A stretch of DNA of 64,000 bases from positions 1,302,001-1,366,000 of the forward strand of contig SCHM01000002.1 of NCBI GenBank assembly GCA_004123355.1. Reading direction: 5' to 3'. This DNA is from Amphirosellinia nigrospora. Lineage: Eukaryota > Ascomycota > Sordariomycetes > Xylariales > Xylariaceae. The notes beneath the pieces were generated by a model, which searched no databases, was not told the origin of the DNA, and saw only the letters and a list, made by a program, of their open reading frames with translations. The position numbers were made by a program, and so were the translations under genes. Shown here piece by piece: positions 7,442 through 62,833 of the stretch (position 1 is the first letter of the stretch; each line of letters begins with the position of its first letter).

Positions 7442-8135
7442 GTTTTCCTATTTAGAGCCTAATCATGTGCTCTCGCATATTCCCCCGAGGAAAGCGATCG
7501 CGACACTTAGAGGCTTACGCCTAAACAGTTTGATTTAGCACTCTCCAGCTCATACCATGTGCAGTGCTACGATACTCTTTAGTGCAAACGGACGAGTGAA
7601 GCCAAGCGCTAGCTCTCGTTGCCGCTAAAAATAAGGTACGGTGCTGTAGTCAAACATAGGTACCTCCACCCAGAAGAGAGCCGGAGTGAAACAGGCCCAC
7701 CTAGATACCTAATAGGACCGTACAGCTATATCTTACACATTCATGTTGATAACAATATTTTAACGCAGCAGGATATTTTAAAGATTGTTCAAGTATAGGT
7801 ATTTTAGTGTGTTCGTTCGAGATTCTAAGTATTTTAAGCTGATAGGTATGGGTAGGTATTAAGGCTTGGCCTGGGGACCCCTGCAAGTACATAATACATT
7901 CACGGTTGCTAGTGGATACCGAACTCCATCCAACACTCAAAAGTCAATACAACATTCCCATTACGTAGCACAACCATTCAAGAGATATTCAGCATATTGC
8001 CTCAACACGCCTCGACCATGCTGTAAATCGATTTGCTTAGAAAATAAGCGCTATTAATAATCACGTACCTACCGCACAACTCTCAGATGAATTGCCTCCA
8101 GTAGCTTTCGACGTAGGGTCGTGTGCGTCATCGAG
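7442..8135. promoter_or_regulatory. divergent intergenic region between ARP10 and YEN1
   Basis: About 690 bp with no supported open frame. It must contain both 5' leaders. Several TAGGTA-type motifs occur at about 7790-7860. No specific operator could be identified. Confidence 0.4.
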
Positions 8136-31539: not shown

Positions 31540-33864
31540 TTAACGCCTCCTAGCTCTCGCGGTCGGGGCTGACTCAAATGGGTCGTCGGAAATCTCATCG
31601 TCACTGATCTCTACCGGTTGCTTCTGAATTGCCTTCTGTGAGAAATTCAACCTCGTCTGTCGGGGTTTCGGCGCAGAAGTAGAAGCGGAAGGGGTTGCGC
31701 GTGAGGAAGTCTGTGATCTCGATGGCTGTGCTCGCGTAGCCGTGGCTCTAGTCGTTGTAGTGCGCTTCGGCGGTGGGGCGGGAGGATCGTAGTTATCATC
31801 GTTCATGACGACGTCGTCATCGTCGTCTTCATCTTCGTCTTGTTTGCGACCGCGGCCGCGACCCTTGGCTGGCGCCTTCTTGGCCGGCGCCTTGGGAGCA
31901 GCCCTGCCTCGCGTGGCCGCTGCTTTAGGCCGTCCTTTAGTTTTGGTTTGTGTGGCGTCTTCTGCGACATCATCCATCTCCTCATCTTCGTCATCCATGA
32001 ATCCTGTGCGTGTAGGCTTCCGGGCTCGGGCCTTGGACGGTGCGGGTTGTGGTGTCTCCTCTACTACTGGAACACGGCTAATTGCCTGAGGTTGATCCTC
32101 CCAATGACCGTCAAGGTCCGAGTCCCATTCATCCGGTTTCGGTTTGTACGAGAGTTTTGGGCCGCGTTTTAGTTGGCCAGTGGCAAATTGTTCCTCAAGC
32201 TTCTTCTTGATCCTCTCCATCGCGTTGTCAAGATCTTCCTCGTCATCGTTCAACGATAACATCTGTTTGACTTGGCCTGACAAAGATTCGGCGACGAACT
32301 GCTCCATAGCATGTTTATCGTCTTTGTCGACGAACTGTGTCACTGCGTCGCCAAACGGTGCCTGGGGAAGTATCTTCAGCGATTGGGCCTTCAAGTACTC
32401 CTCTACGAGCTTAGCAACTTTGACACTATCCATCTCGGCAAGGCTAGCGACAACCTCGTCCGACAATGCATTGGCGGCCGTAGTGCGTTCTATAATTCAT
32501 GTTAGTATCGTACCGACAATTGGCGAAAACGACGTGAGCCACATACTTTGCACCGTCTTCTTTCGATAGAAGTGGACTACATCATTTGTGTTGGCAACTT
32601 TGTCAGAGAATCGGTTAGAAAAACGCTGGGGTTCTCAATATCGTAGTGACCTCCATCCGGTGCCGAATATTCAACTTTGAGACGAACCAAAGGTCTCGGT
32701 CGTTCATTCTCGTCCACATCAACCTCTTGCAGAGACTCCCATTCTACATTAGCTTCCTCGATCATCTCCTCCACCACGGCCATCAATCTTTGGGTTAGCT
32801 CAGCTCGATTTTCCTTCTTCCTTTCTAGACCTTTGAACCTCTTATCGGTCGACAGCACAATCTCAGCAGTGACAAAAGGGCGAACGGACTTTAAGCGATG
32901 CGTCTCCACCTTGAAGTCTCTGCCAGTAACGCTCACCACGGCGACATGTTTCGGGACAGCTTCGCCCGGGACTAGTGATGTAGCGACAGATGAGCCGGGC
33001 TGCATGACATGAAACCCCGTTTCGGGATTTTGTCGAGGATTGATGAGACATTCGTGCTCGTGGCCCCAAACCACTAGATTAAGCCACTCTGGCAGCATGT
33101 TCTCAGGTAGATAACTGGTGGCAGTGTGGGCATGGTGGTTCTGGTGGACGGCAAGTAAGTTGAACCAATCTGTCGACTGCTGATTAGGTCGAAACCATTT
33201 CACTTTGTGATCACGAAAGTTCCGAAACATGCGTTCATCGCGCACGTTGCTGATCCCGTAGAGCGCCAGCTTGGTCTGGCCCTTCTGGAGTAAGACGGGT
33301 TTCACGTCGATCTCGTCAACCTTGGGGGTGCGGCCGTAGTAGTTCACAAGGCCGGCGACCTGAAGCAGGTCGAGTGAGCAGTAGTTGCCCTGGCCGCTGG
33401 GGTCGTCGTGGTTGCCATGAATAGAAAACACGGGGATGGAGATGTTAATATCCGGATCCTCATAGTTGACATGGCTGAAAGCACTCGCGAAGACCTCGTT
33501 GGCATCGCTGAGAAATTGGAGCTCGCATGGTTTCATACCGAGACAGTTCTTTCGGAGCGAACGCATAACATGGTACATGGATAGCCTCGAGGGCTTGTTG
33601 TCGTGGAAGAGGTCGCCAGCAAGCAAGACCATGTCGACGTCTTCTGTTCGTGCTAGGTTCATGATCTCATCAAACGTTTTCCAGCTGTCGTCCTTGCGAA
33701 TGGGGTCGCGCTCCTCGTAGCCCACATGATTATCAGTGGCAACAAGGATGCGAATTGTGTCCGCGACTGATGCTGTGTTAGAGAGGCACGACAAAATTCG
33801 GGCTGGGGTCTTGGGCGTAGGGAGAGATGGACCTACCGGTCATCTGGGATGAGGGTGAAGGCAT
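31540..33864 (-). CDS. MRE11: double-strand-break repair nuclease Mre11
   Basis: Nuclease of the MRX/MRN complex (with Rad50 and Nbs1/Xrs2) that senses and resects DNA breaks. The start is at 33864. The first intron, 33773-33836, joins MPSPSSQMT to ASVADTIRILVATDNH. Phosphodiesterase motifs appear in order: DNHVGY, GDLFHDN, IHGNHDDPSG, AVHQNHHAH and VWGHEHEC. The DNA-binding cap follows. The second intron, 32490-32546 (TACTAAC branch), joins FYRKKTVQ to RTTAANALS. The C-terminal tail has an acidic stretch, an Arg/Gly/Lys-rich segment (GRGRGRKQDEDEDDDDD) and a conserved end, SDDEISDDPFES. One break at about 32,620 separates the cap from the tail; restoring one base gives exactly 735 codons including stop, so the gene is intact. 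Genes of this family are conserved across eukaryotes. Confidence 0.95.
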
Positions 33865-41101: not shown

Positions 41102-41143
41102 AGTACCGTAGCGGGCCAGGGGGGTATACCAAATGATGGTAGA
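41102..41143 (+). repeat. left terminal inverted repeat
   Basis: Matches the reverse complement of 55,200-55,240 with a few mismatches and one gap in the G-run. The outermost 13 bases (AGTACCGTAGCGG) and an inner block of 13 (TATACCAAATGAT) are identical. Confidence 0.85.
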
Positions 41144-41457
41144 TAGAGTTTTTTGAATTAACACCATGATGTGCATATAATATGATTTTGTACAGGGGGA
41201 ATCGTGTCAGCTAGCCGTATCCAGATCTGACGATGTCGTGGTTCCACACTCAAATAAGTGCACAGTGATGACAGTGCTGAATGAATGTGGGGACAGTGTG
41301 CAATTGAACAATCTCACGATATGCGGAATGTGGGTTGCGACGCCACATATGCCTGGAGCGTCACATTGGGGGTCCCATCTGGGTTTTGAGCCACCTTGGG
41401 TCACAGAGCCAGTGTTGTTGGTCCACTCCTGTTACCAGACCCACATATCCCCCAGTA

Positions 41458-41640
41458 AATAATTGACGACTCCTATCCCTGTCTGGGATACTGAATGCGC
41501 TCCGTTTATGTCTTCATGTATATAACTGACGGTTCCCATCCCTGTCTAGGACACTGAACGTACTCCGTGTATGTCCCCAGGTATATAATCTACGGCTCCC
41601 ATCCATGTCTGGTATTCCAGGTGTACTGCTATGTTTGTTT
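41458..41640. repeat. three degenerate 63-bp tandem units
   Basis: Units start near 41,458, 41,521 and 41,584, each with a core like ATAA-TGACGGCTCCCATCC followed by a TGTCTGG-type block. The third unit diverges in its second half. Confidence 0.75.
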
Positions 41641-42607
41641 TTTGCCAATTTATCGCCTCCTAGTGCCAATGACGTCTTCCCAATTCATTTGGTCAATTCT
41701 TTTGGCATTCCCGGACATTTAGACGCTTTATTTATTGCTTACGTAATCTACTAGGTCTGGATATCTGATCTCTGGTCAGAAAATCATGGGGATACTGGCT
41801 GGAGCAAATATTTATCGTGGACAATGCTTGTGACTTACCAATTCTTGTGGGCTCCAAAAATTTTAAGCGGCAGACCATTTTGGGACAGAAATTATGTCTT
41901 GTTTCGGCCCTGAATCATTATTTAGTCAGGAATAATAGGTAAAATCATTCCAAGCATATAAAGCGAAACGGCAACTGAGAAAATGTATTAATATCTGGAC
42001 ATCTCAAGATGTCGGACTGGGCGAGGGATATTATCTGTGAGGGTGCGTTGTCGCATTACCTGCCTCGTTCTGACGAACTTTCTCACTTCAGGGGCTGCGA
42101 TCTATACGCGAGGTATAGTTACGTTCGCAGTATATAGGTTCTTGTTTCCTATTTATATAAGTTGGAATTTCTATTCAGCAATCTAAGTTGATAAATAATT
42201 GATCTTGTTTATAATAAGCAGGCTAGGATAGCTAAACTGTTTCCCAGTTATTCTAAGTTACGGATTGCTGATCTCATTAACGCTTATTTTTTGGGGAATA
42301 GCCTGATTGCATACTTATGCAAAACCTGACAACTTTCGGATGTCGAGATTCTATAGCCATATTCCTACTTAAGGCAGTCCTTTTTATGCACCAGGTGTCT
42401 TAACATATTTGACTTATTATGCTGGGAGCAACATAATGAAGTCTATGTTTCCCACTTCAGAAAACACTTAGATATCTTAGCACAGAGAGCTAGCAAACTT
42501 TTTTACAGTAATCTGACAATTTATTGGGGAAATCTGGGAATAAAACCTAGCTAAGGATTTTTAAAACCATTAAAAATGACCGCATTCCTTAAAGATGAGC
42601 TAGATAT

Positions 42608-42835
42608 AAGAACGTAATGCAACGCATAACTGGGAAATCGCAAACGTATCGCAAATCCGTGAAGTAAAAAGTCAACGCATAACTGTGAATGTCATCCAGC
42701 CTGTCCCGAGGATAAGCTATGATAAGAACGTAATGCAACGCACAACTGGGAAATCGCAAATGCATCGCAAATCCGTGAAGTCAAAAGTTGACGCATAACT
42801 GTGAATAGCATCCAGCCTATCCCATTTGATAGACA
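42608..42835. repeat. two 116-bp tandem units
   Basis: Copies starting at 42,608 and 42,724 each begin AAGAACGTAATGCAACGCA, contain ACTGGGAAA, and end with CATCCAGCCT. They are roughly 90 percent identical by eye. Confidence 0.85.
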
Positions 42836-43101
42836 ATATCCCATTACCTGCGTATGATGCCATGAAATCGATAACAGATGACTGGGAAACTATAAATACG
42901 TTAGGAATATGTATGCCTTACTTAGAACAACCGTAGATATAGAAACATACCTTAGGAGCAACGTGATAATAAAAATGAAAAGAAAAGTATGGAGTCCTAG
43001 GCTAGACACTTGTTCCCCTAGATCCATAGTCTGTAGATCCTATAAATATTAGCTTGTGTAAATTATTATAATAAAGTGAAACCTACTGTTGTATCAAGGA
43101 T

Positions 43102-44942
43102 TTAAAATTCTATGTCATCGCTTTCACCAGCAACATTGCTACCCCAACTAGGATAAGGAGCTATAGCACGGATGTCAAGTTCTACATAGAAAATTAGTAA
43201 CATACTGGGAAAAAGACAATATAATATTTACCCTCTTTGGCCTCTCTAAGGCCAGAATCTGATTGTTGAGCATCTGTAGTTTCGACTTGAGGATCTCCCG
43301 GATTAGTTACTGAGACTTCTGCATATAATATTAGCTGCGTACTGGGAAAATAATAATGGAGTATTTACCCTCTTTGCTCTTATCATCTGGTTCCGGTTGT
43401 TGAGTATCTGGTTGTTGAGCATCTGTAGTTTCGACTTGAGGATCTCCCGGATCAGTTACTGAGACTTCTGCATATAATATTAGCTGCGTACTGGGAAAAT
43501 GATAATGGAGTACTTACCCTCTTTGCTCTTATCATCTGGTTCTGGTTGTTGAGCATCTGATTGTTGAACATCCGCAGTATCATCTCGAGAACTTTCGGGC
43601 AGTAACTGGGACTTCTACAAATAATATTAGCTATATACTGGGAAAAGGATAATGGTGTACTTACCCTCCTTGCTCTCATCATCTGGTTCTGGTTGTTGAG
43701 CATCTGATTGTTGAACATCCGCAGTATCATCTCGAGAACTTTCCGGGGCAGCAACTGGGACTTCTACAAATAATATTAGTTATATACTGGGAAAAGGATA
43801 ATGGAGTGCCTACCCTCTTTGCTCTTATCATCTGATTCCGACTTTGGAGCATCTGATTGTTGAACATCCGTAGTATTATCTCGAGGACTTTCCGGGGCCT
43901 CAACTGGGACTTCTGCATACAATATTAGTCATGTACTGGGAAAAGGATAATGGAGTGCCTACCCTCTTTGCTCTCATCATTTGATCCATGAGCATCTGTA
44001 GTATTATTTTGAGGACTTCCCGGGGCCTCAACTGGGACTTCTGCATACAATATTAGTCATGTACTGGGAAAAGGATAATGAAATTCTTACCTTGGTCGTT
44101 TACGGGTGGATGCATGCCGAATTTTCGCTTAACTGGGTAAAGTTAGTACATTACTGGGAACTACACATCAACAACCCTTAGGAAAAATGTGATGAAACTT
44201 ACTTCTGGCTACGGATAGTTTCGATGGAGGCGCGTTGGCTATTAATCGTTAGTCTCGACTGTGAAAAGAAAATCATATCACGGACCTTTGCGCTTTATTC
44301 CTTTTTCTGTGCTTTCTCAACAACTTTGAGAACTTCTACCTCTGAACTTTCATCTCCATCGTCTTCTTGGATGGCCTTTCCCTTGTTCGTCTTGGCTTGG
44401 GAGGTATTCTTGCTGCTGCTGCTAGCGCCGTTCACATAGTGAAGTTTCACTTCATAGTCGAGGATTTCTAGCCCTCCGATACGTTCCGCCAGCCTGATTC
44501 GCTTTTTCACTTTTTTGAGGTCCTCAGTGGGAACCCGGAACTTCGTGCCGTCAGGCATATCCAAGCTGTGAGCGAATTGTCGGTATTGATTCACAAGGAC
44601 GCAATATAGCGGGTTTCCCTTGTAATGTGAATGGTAGTCCCCATATGCATTCCAGGATGCAAGGACTCGCGCCGGGAATTCAGACTCTGAATGGTTCGGC
44701 ATTATCATTAATGCACCGATGTAGGAGACAAGAGTTGGCGGATGCTGGGGATTATGTTCCCAAGCATTAACGCCATCCTGGAATGACCGGTAAAACGTGT
44801 CGGCCTTTGTAATATATTTGTCGGTACCGCTAGTATAATTATTTAGCTATAATCCAAGAATATTTAGTGAGAAATAAAACTAAAAAAACTTACGGGATCT
44901 TTTGTCATCATCCTCCTTTTTGTTTTTCGAGGAAGGTGCCAT
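43102..44942 (-). CDS. element accessory protein with tandem-exon acidic repeat tail
   Basis: The start at 44942 gives MAPSSKNKKEDDDKRS, followed by an intron (about 44,830-44,893). A globular-looking domain comes next, with KADTFYRSFQDGVNAWEHNP, ARVLASWNAYGDYHSHYKGN and RIRLAERIGGLEILDYEVKL. I do not recognise it. After a Ser/Lys-rich linker and introns at 44,239-44,285 and 44,133-44,202, a basic segment (SVARIKRKFGMHPPVNDQ) leads into a tandem array. There, short phase-1 exons encode an acidic repeat (EVPVxAPESSRDDTADVQQ, then SDAQQPEPDDESKE) separated by introns of exactly 50 nt. The protein stops at 43,102. A homopolymer break near 44,290 and a 2-nt deletion in one array exon (43,518-43,614) interrupt the frame. 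The basic plus acidic design suggests a nuclear DNA- or protein-binding helper of transposition, but this is inference. Confidence 0.65.
43182..44090 (-). repeat. tandem exon-intron array (149-bp unit)
   Basis: Seven introns, all 50 nt: 44,041-44,090; 43,913-43,962; 43,764-43,813; 43,615-43,664; 43,468-43,517; 43,319-43,368; 43,182-43,231. Each starts GTA and ends AG. Each contains TTTCCCAGTA, then a CTAAT-type branch site. Exons between them are 78, 99, 99, 97, 99 and 87 nt. All but the 97-nt one are multiples of three, and all are flanked by phase-1 introns, so units can be added or skipped without shifting frame. Confidence 0.88.
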
Positions 44943-46544
44943 GCTACGTATAATAGTAGCTTCAGCTTCGGGACTGGTTATAAATCAAGTTAGAAAAATA
45001 GCCTAGAGCAAGAAGTAGATGGGAGGTGCAATGCTTGAAGATAGTTCGCGTGGCCTGAGGCCAGTCGCTTCTGCCGTCGTAGATGGAAAGCGGAGTGATA
45101 TTTTAAATCAGAGCAGACGGTGATCGGCAGCTAGCTAGGAGTACGATGCACTTACCTCCTTGATTGGTTCAACTGACTTTGAAAAGAATGCTACTTAATA
45201 TTTCACAGTCAATGGTCTGTAAAGTGATCAAGGATGCCGGAGGTTGAGTGCTTAATGTCGATGCCTGGTCTTGGAGGGCTGTGGTTGTTGAGGATGGGGG
45301 AAGTTGTCGTGGACAGAAAGAGGTACGTTTCGCGATGAGGGATTGTTGTCCCGAGGTAACCGCACTTACCGATTGCGTTGGTGATCTACTTGTCGAGGTA
45401 GGATATGAGGTGAGATGCTTTCCAGTGTTAGGTCAGCCCAAATAAATAGAATCTTTCTCTCTAAGGATGCGACTTGCAGCAAGGCTAATGGCAGTAACGG
45501 GATAAGATCATGGGAGAGCATAGGGCCAAGATAGAGGAGGAGCTTACTTGATGCAATAGAGAAATGCTTTGCGCAAGGTGGCGATGCTGTCGTGGCTAGA
45601 GCTACTGGTGAGAAACCGCCGAGGTCGTGATAGCGGCGACGAAAAGATGTTGTAGTGGTGTGCGCAGAAGCTGAAGCTGAGAATGGCCGTGCACTGGTAA
45701 GTAAGGAAGTTTCGGAAACAGGCGTGCAGTGCGTGGTGAAGGCGGCTCCCTGGGAAAGAAGGGAGAGAGTGGGCGATATTGAGGATTGGATGAAGTAAGT
45801 AGCTAAAGTAGTTCCAGATAAAAAAGGTTACCTAGGCTATGTGTGCAGCAGAGAATGGTATCGATATGTCGACTTGGGTGAAGAGGTATGTGGTGAGACT
45901 TGGGTGAAGAGATATGTGGTGGGAAGGTATGTGGTGGAGAGCTTTAAGAAACACCGGGCTGGGAATAACCTCAAGGTGGCAAGAACACAAGATAGCATAT
46001 ATGGATTCAATCTGTTTGATTTTTTATAGCCCACGAATTAGCTATGTTATCTGCCTGGGAACTGACATCGACCGGTTTTCCCACTTAACAAACTATTGTA
46101 CTTAAGCATAGATTTGATTTTCCAGCAAGTAGTCAAATCATGTACTGGGAAATAACATGTGCTATATAGCAATCGTAAACATGACTTCGGGCCTTGTAAA
46201 TAATTTTAAGGATCGTATATTTGATTGTCTGTGAAATCTGAACATATTAGTCGTCTTGGCTAATAAACTAAATGTCTTGCTGATTGGGAACATACCAACT
46301 CAACCACAAATCATAAGGTACATACCCACCAAAACCCCCAGTTGTCGTGACCTGCATGATAGCATAAGGGACAGCAATGTGTTCGTGTCTTGTTCGCTGG
46401 GAACGCACTGGTTTGATTCCGAACCGAAAAAAAATCGTTATAGTATAATGGTCCTCCCCACTGGGAACAGTTTCATGGCAAGGCACATAAAACAGCTATG
46501 TCTTCTCCACTGGGAATCATGGCAAAGCCCGCACCCACGTAGAT
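44943..46544. other. non-coding interval inside the element
   Basis: Between the two minus-strand accessory genes. No supported frame. It holds one exact ACTGGGAAA at 46,144-46,152 and several CTGGGAAC variants at 46,270-46,520, near the 3' end of the upstream gene. Confidence 0.5.
45872..45938. repeat. 26-bp tandem repeat
   Basis: ACTTGGGTGAAGAGRTATGT at 45,872 and 45,898, followed by further GTATGTGGTGG copies. A small local duplication. Confidence 0.8.
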
Positions 46545-47706
46545 TTATGTAGTAGGGGTAGGCATGTCGCTGCCTGACTCGTCGTCGTCGGATTCGAGCA
46601 CGAAGAAGTCATTATCATCCGGCTTCTTATACCGATCCTTCTTGGCCTTCTTCTGGCGACGGTAACCTTCGACTCGCTGAATAAGCTTTATATCTTCTTG
46701 TTTTGGGATATGTCTTTCCCATTTTTTCGATAAAGTACAGTTCGCAACTCTCTCCGCAAAACCGCTTCGAGAATAATTGCTGACCTCAAGGCGTTTAGGA
46801 TCGTCCAGCCAGTTTAAATGCATCTTGGCGTATGAGCCGAGCTCTACATATAACACTGCTTAGGTTAGCAACAGATTTGACTTTTCACAGCGGTATTCCT
46901 AAACATACGCTTGCAGAACCGTTCAACCTTCTTGCTTGACGATCTGAGGTCGATATGTTTCCGCACGAAATCGAAGATCAGCGCGAATGCCTCAAGGTTG
47001 AACTTCTTTTCCAGTTCAGCTGCGACAACCGACTTGTGCTTAATTCGTTTGAACTCTGGCTCTGCGCGGTTGAGGTCTTTAATATGAGACTACTGTGAAT
47101 TAGCACTGACCTATTACTTCAGCTAAAAGAACTTACAATTAAATTCTCCAATGTGCGGTGTTTCCAGGTGTTAAAGTTCCCGGTGATCCGTTTGTATGCG
47201 GTATTCGACATCCAGGAGGTTAAATCCTTAGAACCCTTGAAATCTTTCATAAAATACTCATGCAAGTATTTTACCTGAGAGTTGTTCAAGTTAAGGAAGA
47301 ATGAAACTCTAGCACTTGTTTCCAGTTCTTTCAAGCGGCGACCGATAGCCTCAGTGTGATATGACGAGCGGGACTCGTACTGGCGTTTTCGTTTATTACC
47401 AGTAGTCACTTCTTCTGAGACCTCAGAGAAGACATCTTTGCCATATTTGCCAATCAGTCCATTCTGGTAAATGATTAGCTTGGATAGGCGTGCAGAGAAT
47501 CAGCATTATACATACTATGGCATTTTTGATGAGCTCCTCTTCAGCTTCCGTCAGGGGATCATTCCCGGGCTCTGCGAAATACTTATCAGTATGAGAGCAC
47601 TGTATATAGTAATACCGGAAATATTACCGTTGGGCTGAGTCTCCAACGACGGCTGCGTCCCTGTTGTGGATTGACCATCTAAGGTTGTGCTTGCAGAGCC
47701 TTCCAT
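46545..47706 (-). CDS. five-exon element accessory protein, unknown family
   Basis: The start at 47706 gives MEGSASTTLDGQSTTGTQPS. Exons are about 47,628-47,706, 47,516-47,571, 47,137-47,463, 46,909-47,076 and 46,545-46,843. Introns of 52-65 nt have GTAATA, GTATGT, GTAAGT and GTATGT donors. Landmarks: EPGNDPLTEAEEELIKNAI; a basic stretch KRKRQYESRSS; helical RISFFLNLNN-like region (SARVSFFLNLNNSQVKYLHE); NLEAFALIFDFVRKHIDLRS; a basic C-terminal block RRQKKAKKDRYKKP; an acidic end LESDDDESGSDMP. The exon 3-4 junction needs one base to stay in frame. It resembles a small nuclear DNA-binding protein, perhaps a Myb/SANT- or DEK-like helper, but no family can be named. It is transcribed divergently from the transposase-like gene. 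Confidence 0.65.
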
Positions 47707-48141
47707 TGCGGCTGCACCTTGGAAATGCACGCTTCTTCGAGAACGGATAAGAAATTAGAAGGAGAGGACTCGTCTAGAATTATAAATGTACGCCGACGCC
47801 AAATCATAAAAAGGAAACGAACACAAGCAAAAAGGCGCGACGAAATTGGATGGATGGAGTGATGGCCATGGGGAGTGGGGACGAAGTGCAGTGGACTAGA
47901 TGCATGTATGATGCATGGGACGTGGGGTAGCCGCCTAAACTCTCCGGTCGCAACTGCTGCCACCAAAAACCTTATCGGCTCAGTGCGATAAGAAATTTCC
48001 ATGTGGATAACAAGGGGTACTTGAGCTCCTTGTCACCACCTGAATCCTCCCAACATTATTTCCTGACCTGTCCATTCTCAGCTTCTCAGACCAGGCACTT
48101 GTTCGCTGTCGCCACGCCTCTCACCACATCTTGAATCCGCC
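47707..48141. promoter_or_regulatory. divergent promoter region inside the element
   Basis: 435 bp between the starts of the minus-strand accessory gene (47,706) and the plus-strand transposase-like gene (48,142). It must carry both promoters. The sequence just before 48,142 is pyrimidine-rich (CTCACCACATCTTGAATCC), typical of fungal leaders. No TTTCCCAGT copy was seen here, unlike in the arms. Confidence 0.5.
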
Positions 48142-51100
48142 ATGGCACGAAACGCTGCCTATATAGATTATTTGTTCGGAGACGAGGCGGAAAACACATT
48201 TCACAATCTACCACCTCTAAATCCTCTCGGGTTTCTAGATCTCATTCCCGCCCGAACGCCATCGCCAAACCCACAACCACGAAAGCGACGACAGCGACCG
48301 TCTACACAACCGCCGCAAGAGATTGACAGGATTAGGGATCAAGTTAATCAATGGTTAGGCGACGATGAGTTCGGTGCTGCCGGGGTCCCAGAACCCGAAC
48401 CCAACCTTGCCGACGTGACTGGGAACATGGTGGACACCGACATACCTACCGACGCCTACGAAAATACCCACGACCTCGTCGAGAACCTCCTAGCTGCACA
48501 TATTGAAGAAACCGAGCTGCCTCCGGTCGAGGAACCTCTGCCTCCTGATCCCATCGCCGAATCCATACTTCACAGTTCAAACACGGATATAAATGAAGAT
48601 ATAACAAATATTGATGACCAAGATGAGAACGCCATATTTGAAACGTCATCTACGTTGGTAGATGATACGGAGGAAATATTTCATATCCCTAAAGATCTAG
48701 AGTTATCGGATTTTCAGAATGCCTTAGGCCTCTGGGTCAACTTACACAGCATCTCCCGGTCCGCGTATTCCCATCTTATTGAGGTTTTCCAACTAGCTAA
48801 AGATCTCGACGACGTAAAAACGATTACGCCGCGGCACGCTAGTCTCAAAGCTCAAGTCCGGAAGTCTTTGCCCTTGGGTAAACTCAGACGGTCTACTGTG
48901 AACCTCGACATGTCTCGTTTACCTACCAGGTCTAAATGAAAATCCTAAGTATTGACTTGGAAGATACATTAAGTACATACCTCTCCTCTAAACGGGTATC
49001 CGATAAGATCTACAAGGGAATGGCTCACCGTACCGGCTCTCAAGTGCGAAATCCATGGGAAGCACCTTGGTGGGGAGAATCTGTCCGTACGTCGTCTGGG
49101 AAGTTCCATTATTATCCCAATGGAGATCCGATATTCCCTTCGACTTCGTAATATGGCAATGTCAAAGTGGTCTGACGGATCATGGTCCCGACCCATGTAC
49201 TGTTAACTGTGAACGCACCCATGTGGGACGTGTCGTCTGGTCTGGGCTGGACATGATTAACGTATCCAAGGATAGCGGTCAGTGCGGGAAACCGCTTCTC
49301 TTGGTGCAGAGGGTGTACCAACGAGGCTCACACATTCCTTTCCACTTAATTACCCTGACCGCCATGATGAGCATTTCCCGGTGTGCACCTACGGCTGAGG
49401 AGCTGGTGATTGTCGAAGACAGCATTATCCCCTACGACCAAACCAAATCATCCGCCGGTTGTCAGGAGTCCATCTCGATTACCAGTTCTCAACCAAAGAC
49501 TTCCGCGCAGAACCCCAACTCCTCACGGCGCCTTTCACTATACGATATATCTGGAATGAATCTAAAATGAATGTCCGAGAACTTAAATATTCATCACCCA
49601 CAGAGCCGAATTAGAACTACAAGCATTTGGGCGTCACCATTTCATAAAATATTTTGTAGGACGAAATATGTTTTCCCTGCCGTTGCAAATGTTTGTGGAT
49701 GCCTTTGGCCTTTTCAGAACCATGTATAGATCTATTGAAGGTATTTATTTCTTCCCGCAATTCTTTGATGCAGAAATTCGCAGCAAGAGATCAGCTGTCC
49801 TAACTGCGACACTTGGTCCCTACGGCGCACAACGAGCTGATGTGTTCAAGACCCTTTTTCGCACTACAAACCTTGACCGTGGAACCGAGTTAGTTGTGAA
49901 TGGTGAAAAGTTATTTGTGTGCTCGTTCGTATCGGCTGTTATTGGTGATATGCCATCCCAGCAAGAGTTGTCGGATGCCTAGGCCCGACTGCTAATTTCC
50001 CATGCCGGTATTGTCTTGTCCCAACACAAGAAAAAGGCGATATGCAATTTGATATCGATAGATTCGGGAAGTATCATAACCAAGTTCTTCATGATAGGGA
50101 ACGAATACTTAGTCAATCGAAAGTTACCAGTACCCGCAAAACAAAACTAGCTGGTCTTGGTCTTAGCGATAATGAATCATTGTTCTCAACAATGCGGTCT
50201 CTTTTCCCCGCACTGGACATCATTCGCAGTCGCCCTATCGATGCAGCCCATTCTGAATATGCTGGAATCTCAAAATATCTTCATCGACTTATTTTCAAGA
50301 AGCAGCCTCTCTACTAACTCGTGCGGCTGGCCAACAAGCAGCCGAAGTATTTCACAATTTCCCTACCCCCCCAGGTTGGCCTCGATTCCAGTCACCTCGC
50401 ACTCACCTCGATTCTTACTCCATGCAAGAATATGCTCGTGGAATTATTGTATTGCCTCTATTCCTGCGTTGCTGGCTCAAAGATCATCATATCAAACCTG
50501 ACCTCCACAAATATATCAAGTCAAGAGCCCGAGATTACCTCGACTACCGCGATCTCCCTATTACAGTTCATAACCATTTCTCAGTAGCCGACTTGGTAGT
50601 TGTCGCGGTCTGGGCAGTAACACGGTCTGTACTAACAACAAATAGCCGAATCAAATCCCAGGCTGAACTGGGAAACTACACTCCCAAATCCCCGAACGAA
50701 GTTCGCGATTATGTGGTCGCTGGCCGAAAAGCATTTCAACTTTTATGTCAGGTTCAGTCCGATGCTTTACAAACAAAGGCGTCAGTCCGGGCAGCCGCCC
50801 AGAATTCCAAAACCCAACAAGAGGTGCAAGGAGCAGGTCGTCGCCGTGGTCAAGTTCCTGGTCGCGCACTAAGCATCATTACTCAACTACAATCCGAAGC
50901 TGCTTTTTCTCAACAATCTTTTGGAGCACCTTCTGAATCACTTCGTACTACACCTACCGAAAAACGACGCCAAGCAAACCCAGAAGAAAAAATAAACCAG
51001 TTCTTACGCTGGAAACAATTGCCAAATGTTCACAGTGGCCTGCATCTCCCGGAAGTAGCCCGTGAGTACGGCAGCTGCACTATGGTTTTTACCCTACTCG

Positions 51101-51992
51101 GCGAGGACATGCACAAGTATGTGTTGCTATAGTTTCCCACTAGCAAGATGTTGCTAATAATATTTGAAGACAGTACAAAGCATTAATCTATAGTACGAAT
51201 TGTGTCGATGTAGCAGCCACTCTTGTTAGCACCAACAACCTCCAAAAACAATTGGCTTCCTCCTCGCCGGCTGTTATGAGAAACAGTTACCCCGACTTCA
51301 TGCTACCTACCAGAAACTCAGAAAGAATGTCCTCGGATGTCGCAAGCCCTGATCCATATTTAGGAGCAGAAGGAGAGGAGACGAGATGTTTCTTACCTGG
51401 AAATAAGTAGCGACCCGAGTCATAAAACACCACGTGCATTCCTTCACGTACCCAGGAGGGTAGTTGCTGCCAGAGAAGATCCGCTGCTCAATGTTGCTAC
51501 AGCCCAAGACATCAACTCCAACCGAGAATTCTTTGCCATGTTATGCAAGGCGTCGGGCGAACACTACAACATGCACATGATAGATCCCGGGCTAAGCGCA
51601 TTGCGGTGGTGGAGGAAGGTTGCTTTCACAACATCGTAAGTGATTTATGGCTCCGATGTCTCTCCCTAATGATTTTCCCACTAACTGTGAGTTAGGCACG
51701 GGGACCGCCAAACCTTAGGTGTTGGCGACTATGCCAAGTTCTATTCTAGTGACCGGTCTGTTTCCTCGATCGCCCGTATCGATGGAATCTTTACACACCA
51801 ACGAACGCTTTCGAATTATCTTTATTTCTTTGTCAGTTTCACAGTGGCTAGGAGCGGGACGGCGGGCACGATCCTGTTCTGAAGTTGCCATACTACGATA
51901 TCACCGGTGAACGTAGCATCATCGGCTGCCACAGCTTGGCGAGGAAAGGCTTTGGATGGTCGATTTATATGAAAAGGGAATCGTGCCTGTAG
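48142..51992 (+). CDS. transposase-like protein (probable DDE, tnp2/CACTA-related fungal family)
   Basis: The start at 48142 gives MARNAAYIDYLFGDEAENTF. The first 200 residues are acidic and low in complexity. The conserved body has ALGLWVNLHSISRSAYSHLI, SSGKFHYYPNGDPIFPS, and a core FSLPLQMFVDAFGLFRTMYR then GIYFFPQF. TATLGPYG, the motif SAVIGDMPSQQELSG, a Cys pair NFPCRYCLVPTQEKG, and RPIDAAHSEYAGISKYLHRL follow. The order acidic residue (VDAFG), then GDMPxQQ, then CxxC resembles the tnp2/CACTA transposase core, and I recall this as a widespread multicopy family of unnamed fungal proteins. Introns at 51,117-51,169 and 51,636-51,695 contain TTTCCCAC. The C-terminal part has HGDRQTLGVGDYAKFYS. 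Frame breaks at about 48,935, 49,150, 49,570-49,660, 49,975, 50,300 and 51,890 interrupt it. Whether an active protein is made is unclear. Confidence 0.6.
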
Positions 51993-54900
51993 AACACAAT
52001 GTGTACTTCATGTAGTAGATAGCTCCGAAGAACTATATTTCCCAGTTAGGAGCGTTACTATAAAGCCGCCAGAAGCAACCCAAGATGCGAGTTTTTAATT
52101 TACTAGTACTGAAAAAAAAAAAAAAAACTTTTTCCCAGTTGTCAACGTTAATATAAAAAGCCTAGTCTGTGAATTGGAAAAAAAATTGGCTTGTGGTATG
52201 ATTGATATGATTTCCCAGGACGGTATGTATTGGCCAGCAGTCGTTAACAGCTGGTCGGGCTACGCCAACTGGGGGGGGAATGCCTTCTAATTTTTCCCAC
52301 CCCACCACTTTACACCTCCTTCTTCCTTTATAAATATCATGTCTTGTTTTTCCCAGTACAAAAAACACCAAATCAGTCGTTTTACCCTTGAGTTCATCAG
52401 ACCAAATTTATTTTTTCCCACTTAAGTGCTGATTTTAGCAGTCTTTTTCACAGTCAAAATTTTTCAGAGGTTATTCTGGGATTCTTAGTCGATTTTGAGC
52501 CACCTACTACCTGTCAATCAGCCGTTTCCCAGTTAAGTCCTCATTTTGGCAGTGTTTTTCCCAGTCCGAATTTTATCCAATTGTCTTCGGGCTTCATTGT
52601 TACATCAAGTCTGCTTATGAATACATGTCCTGACTTTCCCAGTTTAAGAAGTATTCCTTGGTGTTGTCGTGAACTGGGTCGATATCGTCTTTTGCCCATC
52701 AGTCCTACGTTTCCCACTACAGGCACTATTCTGACATTTCCAATTCATCGATCAACAAAAATATTTTCTTACATTCCTGTCCTCTTTTCTCACTCTACCT
52801 ATCACTCATTAAGCCAATCTAACCAACCTAGATATCATTTTAGGGATCATCTGTCTTGCGTTTGCTGTCCATTGTCGGCCCAGACCGCCGGCATCATTAC
52901 TTTATTATCTCGCCCCCTACAACATCTCCACTGTCTCTATCCCAGGAGACAATTCGTTCTTTATTTTATTATTATTTTTTTCAACTGCTGGCTACCATAC
53001 TTTCTACTGCGGATAGCTAAATATTGACAAATCCATTTTTTATTCCAGGTTGTCCCGAATCCAGCCTACGAATCTAACACCACTGGGCAGGCTCTCAGGG
53101 TATGTATATACCTTTACCAAGTCATTGACCTAGCTACTCGTTGATAATCTCACTGGGAAATAGGGCCCTCGCCACTGCGAGATAGTTTATCATACCTTTG
53201 AGATGCCCCATCGCCATTTTTTAGGTGAGCAAATCTTAGCATATCAATCAACTTCCTGAGTTGAGCTTTTCAATAATATGTCTCCCGCTAAGTTCCCGGA
53301 AACCCCCTGTTGGCCTGCTCTAGGATTTTAGCATGCAATTTTCACAGTCATTCGCTTAGTCCATATCTGAAAAGATAGGTAGCCCACACTCCAAGCGGGA
53401 AAGCGGCTAGGGGTAGGTGTGAGTTAAGATGGAAATATGGTAAACTGCTAACACCAATCCTAGACTCACAATCATTCCAAAAAATAGGTGGGTGAGTTGC
53501 GATGATAGGTATCCCATGAATCAGAGAATATGGCATGCTCTGACCAATGGGAAAGTAGGTACCCGATCGGACAGCAACCGGATAGTATTGTCAAGTTGTA
53601 AAAGTTGACGTGAGTTGCCTCCTCGCCTCCCTCTCCCCTTTCAATCCGGTCATTACTTTTCCCAGCTTGGCTTGCTGTCGAAGGCGACTAGAGCATAGCA
53701 ATAATGTCAGTTTGGGCAATGATAATGATTCAGCGAGTAGCATAACATCAGGCCTGTTTGTCTTTTCACTGTTGCTGGATGAACAAGTGAGTAGCTATAT
53801 TGGGATTTCCCAGTCCTTACCTACCTGGTATTAGCACACGCTGACATGCATGCCTCGCATATGCTCCCGGATCTCGAGCGCTGCTATCCCCGTCCCGACC
53901 AACGGAGAACTTTCCCCGGTATGCCGACCTTTCTTTTCCCTCTTCCCAGAGACCACATCAGGGATTGCAAGATTGATAACACAAATCATAGTGTTTCGCA
54001 CTAGGATTATCGCGGGCGAAGTGAAACAAAGGTAGTGACAATGATGCTATATCTACTCGGGGGACATCAAAAGTTTGCACGACAGTTGATATGGATAGAT
54101 ACATACTACCTTGGGAGATGCAGTAAGTGTAATCCCTCGCGAACTCCCCATGTAGATCTTGACATTATTAGATGCGCGCACTCTGTTGAGAAATTGCCAG
54201 GTAAGTTTACAAGATGCAATGCTTCGCCGAATTCAATTGATTAATTGGTGTTCAAGTAGCATTAGGGATACAGGGAACGCCCACCTCGTTTCTCCCCACC
54301 TTATACTCATCGCTCCCCACCAACTAAATCAATATCGGTCGTCGGATTTTGATCTACCCCCAGCCTGAAAGTACAACTGGGAAGTAAGGCTTTCGACACA
54401 CTACACTTTATTCAGCATCAAGGCAAGTAGTAAGTATTGTTTCCCTGTCCAGGTGATGTCGCCGGTCTATATTTATGCCTAAGTCTGTTGACTGGTATAT
54501 GCTATAATCCTATCATATATTTGGCTACTATGAAACAGCCGCCTCATTATAACCAAGCTTAGAATAATTGAACATTTAATTTTCTCACTTGACCACAGGA
54601 GTTGCAGACATCATTTTATTTTTCCGTGCTCGTGTTAAGACTACATGCCTTGTAAGGACCTCTAGCCTGACAGATAGAAAAGAATGTCAGCCGCTTAAAA
54701 TTATTTTTGAATGCCAACTATGTCCGCTACATAATTATTTGACTAGGAAAAAGAGTTGCAATAGAAAACAACACTTCACCCTGCGAGAAGTGCGGGGTTA
54801 AAATAAGGGGGAGGTAAAAAGAGACGTAAGCTGAACAGAGACAGGGGCATAAGATGGATGGCCGGTCAAAAGGGATGTAGACTTAAAAAGAGTTGTAGAT

Positions 54901-55199
54901 TTAAAAAGAGATACGGCAGTAAAATCAACTGTAGTAAAACAGAATATAGGCTCAACAATACAAGCAAGCATAAAATACGTCTTATGGTAAACGGTCAATT
55001 TTTAGGTTACGACTCTTTTCTGGTCACATCTCTTTTGTGACACCGTTTCTTTCAACCCACACTTATTTTGCCAAGTCAATGACTGCGCCACGGACACAGT
55101 GCCAGAAATCCAAGACAGTGTGACATATAAAATAGACGCAGCCCAAAACTAGGTTATGATTAATGTGTCATAAAATAATTTTGAAATTTAAGAATAGTC
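51993..55199. other. right non-coding arm of the element
   Basis: No convincing gene. Exact TTTCCCAGT occurs at 52,038, 52,131, 52,349, 52,525, 52,557, 52,635 and 53,816, and inverted ACTGGGAAA at 53,152; near matches (TTTCCCACT, TTTCCCAGG) are frequent. A 16-nt poly-A run is near 52,112-52,127. At 54,840-54,990 the plus strand is purine-rich with repeated TTAAAAAGAG; a 60-codon basic frame there is probably chance. Confidence 0.6.
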
Positions 55200-55240
55200 T
55201 CTACTATCATTTGGTATACCCCCCCGTCCGCTACGGTACT
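55200..55240 (-). repeat. right terminal inverted repeat
   Basis: The reverse complement of this segment aligns with 41,102-41,143. It ends CCGCTACGGTACT at the outer boundary. The flanks (GAAGATTT on the left, CTTGATAG on the right) do not match as a target duplication. Confidence 0.85.
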
Positions 55241-56555: not shown

Positions 56556-59500
56556 ATGTCCAGCCCTTTTTGTCAGCCCGAAAATGCCGCAAATGCTGCA
56601 CGGGTGAGCGAGTCCCTGCCAGTCACGCCAATCCCTCCTGGTGTCCCTGCTGCCGCTGCCGCTGTCACTGGTCCTACGACTGCGACTGCGACTACGACTG
56701 CGACTGACGAACAACCCTCCTCACCCACAGCTCCGACTGGTTCCCCTCCTATCCCCGACGCACGCCCTGCTACCGTCGTCTCTCCCCTTCATCGGGCCCC
56801 ATTAGCGTGCCCATCTCGCCCTCTACGTCTCCATCCTCGGCTATTTCCGCCAGCCATGGGGACCAGGTCAATAAAAGAGCAAGGCCGCCACTGGCCGTCA
56901 CCAGATCCAATGGACCTTCCTTGCTAACACAGGCTCTTGCTTCTGCGCGAGGCATCCCCCTTCCACCGCCCCTCCGACAGATCAACTCCAGCCCGACCAT
57001 CAGTACACACAACCCAATGACCCATCGCTCCGATCGCACCAATCCACCCATGTCTCTGCCAGCGTTCAAGAGTTGACACCCCTCGAGCTGCGCCATGATG
57101 CCCTAACGCATTGCTCGGACGTTTCTACGTTACCAGTTACTTCCCAGGGACGAATTGTCCCTCCCCGGACCATATCGTCGCCCACGTTTCACTCGCCATC
57201 ACATCCTGCCGTTTCTGCTGCGGATCCTGCCTCCATTTCGATGCCTGGCCTTATAGAGGTGTTCCCGCTCCTGAGGGATCACCCAGGCCCTCATTTCATG
57301 GGCCGGCCAAGAGGGAGGTCCCTTGAGCGCACAGAGAAGGAAGCTCGCTCGCATACATTGGATTAATGCGACCGACTTACCCTTGAATGGTGTTGGGAAA
57401 ACTGCGTACAACTGCGGCGATAGCGCCTTTTCTCGTTACAATGATTCGGAGGCCAACTCAGACTCGCGTGCTGAATACCGGGCATGGAGGACTGAGAGAA
57501 CTGTGTCAATGGGCCCGGAGAAAGCATGGTCCATTGGGACTGGGGACGTTGTTGGCCATCAGGATGGTCAAGTTGAAAAGTCAATTGCCGAAGTACTGGC
57601 TGGGATGGAACCAACAAGAAGCCGTAAGGCGAGCCATAGTCTCCGATTCTTCAAGGAAGGCCTCCCAGCGGACAAAGCTAAACGAAAAGAGCCGAAATCT
57701 AGCTCACAGCAGGAGGCAACATCACCATCAAAAGGACAACAGCAAATGCGCATCATGCCCCACCAACCCCCCAAGATTTTGACTTCACCACATCGATCTA
57801 TCGAAGTCGAGGATGTGCAGTCTTTGTCAAGTCCCGAATATTTACCACCTAGTACTCATGCCGCTGAGTCTCCCCTAGAGAAATTTGCCAAAGACGACTA
57901 CTTCTCCTTCAAAAAATCGAGCCCACAACAACTAAGCCTGCTAAATTCCATAAGATAATGAACAGTCTATACCATCGTCAGGGCTTACTAATAGGTCACG
58001 TATTGGAAGTCTGGAGATGGAAGTGCCTGGGAATTCGATACGCACGATCGAATGGTAATGGAAAATAATGATACGGGTGAAGCGGTTGAGGAAGGTGAGG
58101 AGTCCTCTGAAGAGAAGATTTCATCTGCGTTGTTCCTGCCACATCAGGGCTTGGAGGATTCTGCGGGAGAGGGATCTTGTTATTGAGAAGGTTGAACCCG
58201 AACATCCTAGTACTCGTTCCGCTTCCAAGAAGGAGTTCCACCCCTGGCTTGTGAAAGCAGATGAACTAGAAGCTGAAGGCGAAAGTCTAACTGATGTACA
58301 TCACGAAGACGTGTCCCAAGGTAGGAGAGACAGCATACTTCATGGTCGAGACTTCAACAAAGATCATGAAGAGGGTGTTCCAAATGAAAATGAACTTAAA
58401 ACGAAGCCATGTGACATACCCGCAATGGCCTCGCGTCCTGTATCGGGATATTACGAAGATATATTGCACGATCATCAACTAGAGCCTAAGGTACCCCTTG
58501 AAGCTATTGAGCTAATACCATACAAGCACCAGGTTGGGGGCCATACCACCATCTGGAGATTCTCCAAAAGAGCGGTTTGCAAGCAGCTTAATAACCGAAA
58601 AATGAGTTTTATGAGAAAATTGAACGATTTCACCGCGACCTTTTACCTTTCTTGCCCAGGTCTGTAAAAGCAATCTTTCTTTTATCGACGACATTGCCAC
58701 TGGTAATTGCTCAAACGATAGGGAATATATAACTAACATAGTTTCCAGGTACATCGGTGTTCTGAATGTTACATATCAGAAGCAGCCACGCAGGAAGTCT
58801 ATAGTGAGAAAAGACGAAAACGCTGGAGCCGAAAAGGTACCAGGTGAACCTGATGTTCAGTCCAATGGCACCGACGGCAGCACTAAGACTAGGATCCGTC
58901 GATCATCTAATGGTTATGATGAAGATAACCGCCGGCGAATTGTCAGCCAGTCTCTCCGATCTGGGCAAACTCCAGTCCCAACCGTTACATTCATGGATAA
59001 TCAACATATTCTACCTAGGAGTTGGCTCAAGCCTTCTTTATTTTCAGAAATCAAGGAGCGCCCAAGGAGCGCGTCCGCAGCTATGGTACAACCACGTACG
59101 GGCAATATCTCATCGCTAACCCCCGATCATGATGCTTCTGAAAGTGCTAGGCCTACGCTAGAGGATCGACATGCGAATAGCTGGGGGCAACAATGGTCAA
59201 TAAACGGTTGAGAAACGAAGTGTTCAACGACGCGTTTTTGAAGCAGCCTATTACTGTGCAGAAACACCGGAGACCTGCATCATATCACCGCTCAGTTCCT
59301 CGTCCCTCAGTATCACCTCGTCAATCGAAATCGGTGACCGGGTTTCCAACAATTAGGAGCGAAAACGACCAAACTTCATTGTCAAATGGATTAAGCGGCC
59401 TCAAAAACCAGGCAATTCTTCAACAAAGTCAGAGTGACCTAGGACCGACTGGAGATCGCCTGGTTGTGAGCCATGTAGACCATGTGAAAGATGTAACTGG

Positions 59501-60656
59501 TACCAGCGCTCCGGAAGCAGAGGTATTGGGTGAAAATTTTTCCCCGCGCGTACAAAAGCGCCGCTATTCCGGTAGCAAGTTGCGACGTAAGCCTCAAGAA
59601 GTTGGGGAGTCACGCGGTGACTTAAAATACTTTGAGGACGCAGACGACGTCAGATATGGAGGTGATGGTGAAGCGAAAGTATTCTCACCGCTTCTCAATG
59701 GCGCGGGTAAGAATGGGGAAGTCGTCTCAAAGGATACGGAATGTGACGGCATGGCAAAACCCGAGCTGCCGAAATACGAACTTTCTCCTGCAATATCTGG
59801 TTCAGAAATAGAGTTCAAGAGGGTTCCACGACCAGTCAATCCAAAAGAAGCTCAGACCCAACACCACTCGAGGGTTGAGTACTTCCTGTTGCTTGAAGAC
59901 CTCACAGCTGGGATGAAAAGACCCTGCATCATGGATCTGAAAATGGGTACCCGGCAGTATGGTGTTGACGCTGGCCCCAAAAAACGTGAATCTCAGCGCC
60001 GAAAATGTGCAGAGACGACATCCAGAGAATTAGGGGTCAGGGTGTGTGGTCTACAAACGTGGGACGCCAGATCGCACACATATGTGTTCCGAGACAAGTA
60101 CTACGGACGAGATATAAAGGCCGGAAAAGAGTTTCAAGACACACTCACCATGTTTCTCTATGATGGAGTGGATTATAGTAGTGTCCTAAAACATATACCC
60201 ACCATACTTCAAAAACTCAATCAACTGGAGGTAACCATTCGACGTCTGCGCGGGTACCGATTCTACGCTGCCAGTCTTCTGATGTTTTATGATGCCGGAA
60301 CATCCGCCGATGGCAACGATACAGCGGCCGAGGACTCCACCACGGACTTCGCAACAGACACAGAGGATGCAAGGGACGGAAGAAGACGTCGAAAGAGTAA
60401 AGTTGAAATCGATTTCAAGATGGCAGACTTCGCAAATAGCGTAACGGCTGGTGACTTGGCCACGGACAAACCATGTCCACCTACACATCCAGACGAGCCA
60501 GACCGGGGTTTCCTGCGGGGCCTCGCGACGCTTCGAGAATATTTCTTGCAGATACAGAAGGACGTGCGGCGGGAGATGGGGTTAAACCTACGTAAACATG
60601 ACGAAGATGCCCGAGCGGTGGAAGACGACTATGACGAGCTAAGCGTCAGCGAGTGA
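56556..60656 (+). CDS. KCS1: inositol hexakisphosphate kinase (Kcs1)
   Basis: Makes inositol pyrophosphate (5-InsP7) from InsP6; the product controls phosphate sensing, vacuole shape and telomere length. The start at 56556 gives MSSPFCQPENAANAARVSES. A long low-complexity N-terminus (Pro/Ser/Thr) includes a (CTGCGA)n-coded stretch at about 56,680-56,708. The first conserved block is PLEAIELIPYKHQVGGHTTI, then, after an intron at 58,660-58,748, YIGVLNVTYQKQPRRKS. The kinase core near the C-terminus has VEYFLLLEDLTAGMKRPCIM, the IPK signature PCIMDLKMGTRQYG, CGLQTWD, DKYYGRDIKAGKEF, FYAASLLMFYDAG and VEIDFKMADFANS. The last 487 codons are one intact frame. Frame breaks occur at about 56,800, 57,075, 57,365, 57,950-58,050, 58,185, 58,600-58,650 and 59,205. 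It is in the same orientation as ALG2. Confidence 0.9.
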
Positions 60657-61383: not shown

Positions 61384-62833
61384 ATGGCGAACAAGTCAGA
61401 TAACCACGGCAGGACAATAGTCTTCCTGCACCCCGACCTGGGCATCGGTGGTGCCGAAAGGCTCGTCGTCGACGCTGCCGTCGGCCTGCAGAAGCGAGGC
61501 CACAAGATCGTCATATTCACGAGCCATTGTGATCCAGGCCACTGTTTCGACGAGGCTCGAGATGGTGAGAGCTTGTCTGTTCCACGTTATCGCGATTCTT
61601 ACGTCGAATGCTAATTGCCGCGCTCTATAGGAACCCTAGACGTTCGTGTCCGCGGTAACACCGTCATCCCCCCTCGATTCTCGGACGATTCAGCATCCTC
61701 TGCGCCATTCTCCGCCAGCTTCACCTACTCCTCCAGATACACTTTACGTCGGAGCTCAGCCGTCTACGCCCCGATGCATATTTCGTCGATCAGCTCAGTG
61801 CCGGTCTGCCGCTCCTGCAGTACCTCCACCCACAGGGACGCATATTCTTCTACTGTCACTTTCCGGATCTGTTGCTAGCACAGGGCAGGCAGAGGTGGTG
61901 GAAGCGTCTGTACAGGGTGCCGTTCGACTTCTGGGAGCAGTGGAGCATGAGTTTCGCCGACGCCATTGCTGTCAACTCCAACTTTACAAAGGGTGTCGTT
62001 AGTCGGACATGGCCTGCACTCGCACGCCAAAAGGAGCTGTGGACCGTATATCCTTGCGTGGACACCAAATCCAAAACGAAGCACACGGATGAAAAACCGT
62101 TGTGGAATGGGATGAAGTATGTCTTGAGCATAAACCGCTTCGAACGCAAAAAGGACATCGCACTCGCTATCAAAGCCTTTGCTGGCCTGAGCAAGAAACA
62201 ACGTGCCGGGGCGAGGCTCGCTGTTGCTGGAGGCTACGATCCCCGCGTCTCTGAGAACGTCGGGTACCACAATGAACTAGTCAAGTTAGCCGAGTCTCTC
62301 GGCCTGAAGAACATGACAGTCAAGACGCCCCAAACAGCTCAGGCCGTGCCGCAGGACGTCGAGGTCTTGTTTCTCCAGAACGTGACTAACATATTGAAGG
62401 AGATGCTGTTATCATCGGCTCGTCTCCTAGTCTACACCCTGCGAACGAACATTTCGGTATTGTACCCCTCGAGGCTATGCTCAGCGGCATTCCTGTTCTT
62501 GCCGCCGACACAGGTGGCCCCGTAGAGACCGTCGTGGAAGGCAAGACCGGCTGGCTGCGCTCTCCTGATAACGTCGACGAATGGACCGCAGTTATGGACA
62601 AAGCTCTTCACCAGCTAAGCGCACAGGACCTAGCGGAAATGTCGAAGGCAGGTATCGAGCGGGTCAAGAATGGGTTTGGGGAGGCAGAGATGGCTCAGCG
62701 CTTAGACTCCATTTTTGATAAGATAATTGATATGGAGAGGCCTAATCGAAGCAGCATTATCACGATAGCTTTACTGGGAGGCTTGCTTGGCTTGGTTAGT
62801 GCTACGGCAGTTGCAGTCCAGGCATATTCATAA
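61384..62833 (+). CDS. ALG2: GDP-Man:Man1GlcNAc2-PP-dolichol mannosyltransferase (Alg2)
   Basis: Adds the second and third mannoses (alpha-1,3 and alpha-1,6) to the dolichol-linked N-glycan precursor on the cytosolic face of the ER. The start is at 61384. GT4/GT-B features: donor-side glycine loop [18 protein letters not shown] near residue 20, [37 protein letters not shown], and the EX7E motif [24 protein letters not shown]-like segment appears as [20 protein letters not shown]-terminal hydrophobic stretch ([20 protein letters not shown]) is probably a membrane anchor. One intron, 61,565-61,630, splits a glycine codon. Breaks at about 61,672 and about 62,443 each need one base; restoring them gives exactly 462 codons including stop, matching family length. 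Confidence 0.93.

Follow-up and report, generated by a model that had tools for sequence, protein, structure and literature searches.

A 14.1-kb inverted-repeat element in Amphirosellinia nigrospora: a probable inactive copy of a Plavaka-related DNA transposon with motif arrays and two accessory genes

What kind of sequence fills the 14.1 kb between two inverted repeats in the genome of the fungus Amphirosellinia nigrospora? The repeats lie in a stretch of 64,000 nucleotides (SCHM01000002.1, positions 1,302,001 to 1,366,000), here called the window, which falls within contig C4 of the searched genome (48.1 Mb, 11 contigs). An earlier note, made from the letters of the window, had proposed a large element with terminal inverted repeats, a transposase gene and two accessory genes (A and B here), with local tandem repeats and arms full of one 9-mer, CACTA-like and perhaps of an undescribed type. 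With a probability of about 0.85, the repeats bound a full-length but inactive copy of a Plavaka-related cut-and-paste DNA transposon of large size, a member of the CACTA-Mirage-Chapaev-Transib (CMCT) clade, for which a mechanism based on a helper protein and its motif arrays is proposed. The observations on which this reading is built are the paired ends, the arrays, the gene content, the multi-copy family, the homology and residue pattern of the transposase, the decay of the copy and the selection on gene B.

Ends, transposase and family

The inverted ends of about 42 bp, at 41102-41143 and 55200-55240, carry the outer AGTACCGTAGCGG and inner TATACCAAATGAT quoted in the earlier note, and the left end used as a query against the whole genome retrieved the right end with an E value of 4.0e-7 and 90% identity. 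The alignment of ends comprised seven sequences: the left and right ends of the window element, the sites C1:10137203, C5:6060533 and C6:486728, and the two ends of a sister element that lies on contig C9. Because the five window-type ends agree from CCGTAG inward and differ outside, the terminus of the window element is probably CCGTAGCGG, with limits at 41106-55236 and TA on each side, and most of the 'AGTA' quoted earlier as part of the end probably belongs to the target. Four of the five window-type ends have TA ahead of CCG, and the C6 end has AA. In the C9 sister, AT stands in the corresponding register at either end, a register that is less certain because the outermost bases of the sister have diverged. 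A 2-bp TA duplication upon insertion of the window element is probable, if unproved.

The recurrence of the window-type end at the unlinked C1, C5 and C6 sites is supported by longer alignment. The 17-mer CCGTAGCGGGCCAGGGG with up to two mismatches gave eight genome matches against eight for the control, and the only outside-window matches used were those backed by that alignment (C1:10137185, C5:6060515 and C6:486711). Perfect 13-mers AGTACCGTAGCGG at C1:1794692 and C4:948789 were rejected as chance, with four matches in total versus five for the reversed control. The stretches C1:10137020-10137203 and C5:6060233-6060533 are 93% identical, each with a right-type end and, after it, a hairpin that is nearly perfect (43-nt arms, 88%); because neither holds a transposase match, they may be non-autonomous derivatives. 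Separately, CCGTAGCGCGCCAAGGG is the sequence at both C5:7130470-7130486 and C6:2674912-2674928, two sites that may be termini of a further related family.

The transposase gene consists of nine matches to residues 1-1264 of P0002 (F5Y01DRAFT_267611 of Xylaria sp. FL0043, the reference for residue numbering), with changing frames, part of which could be introns, and with internal stops. As read from its sequence the window copy is broken, a point absent from the earlier note, and it is very probably unable to supply its own transposase. A protein search with joined fragments, in which scoring was limited to the 7,999 candidates with the most shared words, returned 41 relatives, the nearest from Xylaria sp. 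FL0043 (73%), X. intraflava (67%) and Xylaria sp. CBS 124048 (63%). Thirteen bear the names Xylaria, 'Xylariales sp.', Parahypoxylon, Jackrogersella or Annulohypoxylon, all of one order, nine have other fungal names and 19 are without an organism name; the named relatives are ascomycetes. In a FastTree analysis that combined the 41 relatives with the window pieces and the C9 sister, the window copy grouped with four Xylaria proteins as a clade of five (support 1.0), and the sister fell next to P0006 (support 0.82).

The D-D-C(2)C-H(3)H-E pattern of the CMCT clade is kept by the transposase relatives. D528, D611, C630/C633, H972/H976 and E996 are invariant in 21 aligned relatives, the corresponding residue words recur in the C9 sister and, spread over separate pieces, in the window copy, and the conserved D and E are putative catalytic residues. 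Two D, two C and two H positions reach at least 90% conservation in the alignment of all 41 proteins, several of which are partial. The Pfam family Plavaka (PF18759) was matched by five of the 41 relatives at E<=0.1, the best at E 5.9e-6 with 26.2 bits against a cut-off of 26.3, which points weakly to a Plavaka-related transposase within the known Plavaka/CMCT group; it is not filed under PlavakaA or PlavakaB because the reported ends of those differ. No Transposase_21 (tnp2) match was obtained in the window pieces (E<=1) or among the families listed for the 41 relatives (E<=0.1), and the transposase profile had no match among solved structures at E<=10.

Transposase matches were found at at least seven places, namely the window, C9 at about 320k, 489k, 533k, 803k and 1201k, and C7:1067k, where 31 matches were listed and all counts are lower bounds. 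Two partial copies lie on C9 beside the sister. The 533k copy comprises right-half parts (element 8161-14018) in pieces of 88-97% identity with other sequence in between, and its transposase compared with that of the window over 888 codons gave a ratio of nonsynonymous to synonymous divergence (dN/dS) of 0.45. The 1198-1201k copy comprises left-half parts (element 1251-7877) that include genes B and A as well as the transposase start, its main pieces being 80-96% identical. The sister, of about 10 kb (about 799.7-809.9 kb), has related ends with an exact shared inverted repeat of 20 bp, and its gene order matches that of the window, with A leftward, the transposase rightward and the inverted ends outside. 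Its transposase is open over P0002 residues 27-794 and continues in three more pieces, one with a stop; gene B matches are absent from it, and a genome search with its ends found no further copies beyond itself.

Two side observations concern C9 (1,326,445 bases). Among the listed matches, five of the seven transposase places are on this small contig, possibly an accessory chromosome or one rich in transposons. On either side of the 533k copy (region C9:525476-549366) stand long copies of another repeat in inverted orientation, with exact stretches of up to 86 bp, an arrangement that suggests nested elements.

Motif arrays and accessory genes

The commonest 9-mer of the element, ACTGGGAAA/TTTCCCAGT, occurs 21 times inside it and not once in the rest of the window, against an expected count of 0.15 (first-order Markov) or 0.23 (second-order). 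The densest motif stretches lie about 1-3 kb inward of the element ends, the 21st copy falls inside the transposase gene, and local tandem repeats have spacings of 63, 116 and about 149 bp. The two arms are opposed in motif orientation (Fisher p 0.0008 with all arm copies). Seven left-arm copies belong to one tandem array and hence are not independent; p is 0.03 when they are removed and 0.0007 for a looser motif with the same removal. An open frame of 211 codons from stop to stop (window 52392-53027, plus strand) overlaps the motif array in the right arm and has no gene evidence.

Gene B, whose start and stop were read from the sequence, has matches at two genome places and one relative among 91 candidates, P0001 (F5Y01DRAFT_79561) of Xylaria sp. 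FL0043. P0001 and P0002 are each encoded on a contig of 1,348,600 bases, very probably one and the same. The main exons of the two copies differ with dN 0.092 and dS 0.58 (ratio 0.16), and gene B was under purifying selection. The join of the first exon to the main exon is out of frame in the window; at C9:1198k the corresponding exons join in frame to give a P0001-like protein.

The 3' part of gene B, read on the minus strand, is made of repeated units of about 149 bp, which a genome search confined to the window and 1198k copies. It contains seven predicted introns of 50 nt, each with TTTTCCCAGT followed by CTAAT, so that a third of all ACTGGGAAA sites (7/21) lie in gene B introns. The search pattern demanded GTAA/GTAG at the start, TTTTCCCAG, and AG at the end, but did not impose the equal length of 50 nt. 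The six exons between them measure 78, 99, 99, 97, 99 and 87 nt, five of the six being multiples of three, and read as acidic repeats. When the 1198k copy was searched without the motif, six intron-like stretches came up; three were of the gene B type with a length of exactly 50 nt, one carrying the exact motif.

Gene A is recognised by its homologue in the C9 sister, with 40 of 104 aligned residues identical and differences of 53/43/71 at the three codon positions. It has no database relative at E<=0.001 among 2,394 candidates, and in the genome it is matched in the window, in the C9 sister and, as two small pieces, at C9:1200k. The claim of a large element with three genes, one of them a transposase gene, is thus upheld by homologues, frames and codon-position differences, as are the claims about the 9-mer and the tandem repeats by the counts and spacings given above.

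How would such an element move? By the mechanism proposed here, the DDE transposase of a working relative would cut at the CCGTAG ends, and insertion would create a short, probably 2-bp, target duplication. A helper encoded by the element would bind the oppositely oriented ACTGGGAAA arrays of the arms and draw the ends together, as TNPA does in Spm/En. Subterminal repeats are recognised by TNPA in Spm/En according to the excerpts used of PMC2613891, and by this analogy the arrays are likely helper-binding sites. Co-occurrence suggests gene B as the helper, because B and the motif are found together in the window and 1198k copies, whereas ACTGGGAAA is missing from the sister, which lacks B; the 533k copy, with three exact motifs, comprises only the right half of the element, so it is uninformative on gene B. 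Protein A is equally open as the binder, because the sister keeps gene A and has near-variant motif copies: six A[CG]TGTGAAA lie inside it versus one in its 19.8-kb flanks, without a clear orientation, which speaks against B as the binder.

A further proposal, tentative and rather doubtful, is that tandem exon-intron duplication lengthens protein B by about 33 acidic residues and adds, within the 50-nt intron, one ACTGGGAAA site bound by B or A, in one step. If true, part of a transposition-critical cis array would be kept within introns of the element's own helper gene. Neither such coupling of helper-protein repeat growth with a cis array nor motif arrays in duplicated introns were found in searches of the open-access literature.

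The stretch could also be a transposon in which the 9-mer is no helper site at all, TTTCCCAGT being intron-internal or splice-acceptor-like and its orientation tracking transcription in each arm. Motif direction does follow the genes, with A and B leftward and the transposase rightward, the seven intronic copies fit, TTTTCCCAG resembles the splice-acceptor consensus, and motif sites are not clearly conserved above background. However, the transposase gene stops at 52012, short of the right array (52038-53814), and in the gene B introns both CTAAT and the terminal AG come after the motif, which is therefore no acceptor for these 50-nt introns. We regard this explanation as fairly unlikely.

Less probable again is a composite, in which gene B and the tandem repeats were inserted or captured later into an old transposon and B has no role in transposition. 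It would account for the 10-kb sister with gene A and the transposase and no gene B, and for the one relative of gene B in the database search. It accords poorly, however, with the shared gene order of two diverged copies, where B adjoins A and the transposase, with purifying selection on gene B, and with the gene B relative of Xylaria sp. FL0043, which very probably lies on one contig with the nearest transposase.

Table 1. Positions of the element and its features in the window
Feature	Position	Strand	Basis
Whole element, likeliest limits (CCGTAGCGG ... CCGCTACGG)	41106..55236		alignment of seven ends and sequence
Left terminal inverted repeat	41106..41143	+	end search and repeat comparison
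Right terminal inverted repeat	55200..55236	-	end search and repeat comparison
TA, left copy of probable 2-bp target duplication	41104..41105		inferred from sequence and end alignment
TA, right copy of probable 2-bp target duplication	55237..55238		inferred from sequence and end alignment
Left-arm ACTGGGAAA sites, 11 on + and 1 on -	42240..46152		motif count
Right-arm ACTGGGAAA sites, 1 on + and 7 on -	52038..53814		motif count
Accessory gene B	43102..44942	-	relative P0001, second copy at C9:1198k, frames and splicing, dN/dS
Seven predicted 50-nt introns of gene B, each with TTTTCCCAGT	43182..44090	-	pattern search
Accessory gene A, several exons, joins unconfirmed	46545..47706	-	homologue in C9 sister, codon-position differences
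Broken transposase gene, Plavaka-related (CMCT pattern)	48142..52012	+	matches to P0002, stops, relatives

Counter-evidence, decay and surroundings

Several results weigh against a Plavaka-related transposon with a helper and its arrays. The earlier note had named full-length copies and empty sites as a check: partial copies and the sister were found, but only one copy with both window-type ends was found in the assembly, and no empty site appeared in a genome search with the left flank alone, which matched only itself. The nearest transposase relatives and the window pieces gave no convincing Pfam match, Plavaka included, and the final E is outside the 90%-conserved columns of the 41-protein alignment with its partial members. 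No DNA-binding domain was recognised in protein A or B, and ACTGGGAAA was not found in the C9 sister. Of 27 A[CG]TGGGAAA sites, only seven and five fall in parts aligned with the 533k and 1198k copies; identical sites numbered two of four arm sites in the former (0.46 expected) and two of five in the latter (0.21 expected), which is not clearly better than the background.

A chance inverted repeat around ordinary host genes, or a conserved host locus, could appeal to the single two-ended copy, yet is hardly credible, as the genes recur together at other loci instead of being conserved in single copy and the end recurs at unlinked places.

Repeat-induced point mutation is unsupported as the cause of decay of the window copy, where element and flanks have similar indices (TA/AT 0.84 vs 0.83; (CA+TG)/(AC+GT) 1.18 vs 1.15). 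The 1198k copy differs in these indices (1.03 and 1.01) and could fit such mutation. Flanking open frames at 32580-33839, 59181-60653 and 61659-62522 resemble Mre11, an inositol polyphosphate kinase and the ALG2 mannosyltransferase, and the window element seems to sit between genes.

Comparison with known systems

According to the excerpts used of one survey (Kojima 2025, PMC12730594), Plavaka families were reconstructed from Agaricomycotina and have TGT..ACA (PlavakaA) or CATCA..TGATG (PlavakaB) ends, with target duplications of 2 bp and 2-3 bp, respectively; the CMCT clade has mostly 5'-CA..TG-3' ends and 2-5 bp duplications, and Kyakuja and Zisupton have duplications of 7 or 8 bp. Against the clade at large, the element has CCG..CGG instead of CA..TG ends, with a probable 2-bp TA. 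Plavaka is approached by the transposase link via P0036, by the C(2)C and H(3)H between the second D and E, and by a probable 2-bp duplication as in PlavakaA, whereas the CCGTAG..CTACGG ends are neither those of PlavakaA nor those of PlavakaB and the named relatives are ascomycetes and not Agaricomycotina.

As far as the survey excerpts go, CCGTAG ends fit no CACTA or Plavaka subtype, and ESTA (EnSpm-like transposase, TA duplications) is similar in its TA flanks and the clade pattern. The Kyakuja-Dileera-Zisupton (KDZ) group was rejected, with no KDZ family in Pfam scans and no 7- or 8-bp repeat at the flanks. A standard CACTA element was rejected as well, since the ends are not CACTA/CAC, Transposase_21 is not matched and no 3-bp duplication is apparent; of the term 'CACTA-like' the residue pattern and the motif arrays stand and these three features do not. 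Nor is the type wholly undescribed, as the transposase falls in the known Plavaka/CMCT group, while its ends, accessory genes and motif-bearing introns, and any ascomycete Plavaka-type element with described ends, were not found in searches of the open-access literature. Ends, gene content and a probable duplication are now given for a Plavaka-related lineage with ascomycetes as its named members.

Animal TRC elements, in the parts drawn on of PMC1636069, share ends beginning with CC, 2-bp direct repeats beside the ends and a CACTA-related transposase, and differ in their CCC ends (CCG here), a Transposase_21 domain and a size of about 5 kb. With the CACTA/EnSpm elements Spm/En, Tam1 and Tgmt*, as far as described in the excerpts of PMC2613891, the element has in common its large size, a transposase of the same clade, subterminal motif arrays and a diverging accessory protein. 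It differs from them in lacking CACTA ends, a Transposase_21 match and an apparent 3-bp duplication, in carrying the motif partly in introns, and in that helper binding is putative. The element would be a second case of the Spm-like plan of transposase, diverging helper and motif arrays, with the array partly in duplicated introns, and the co-evolution of helper and array becomes testable in culturable fungi.

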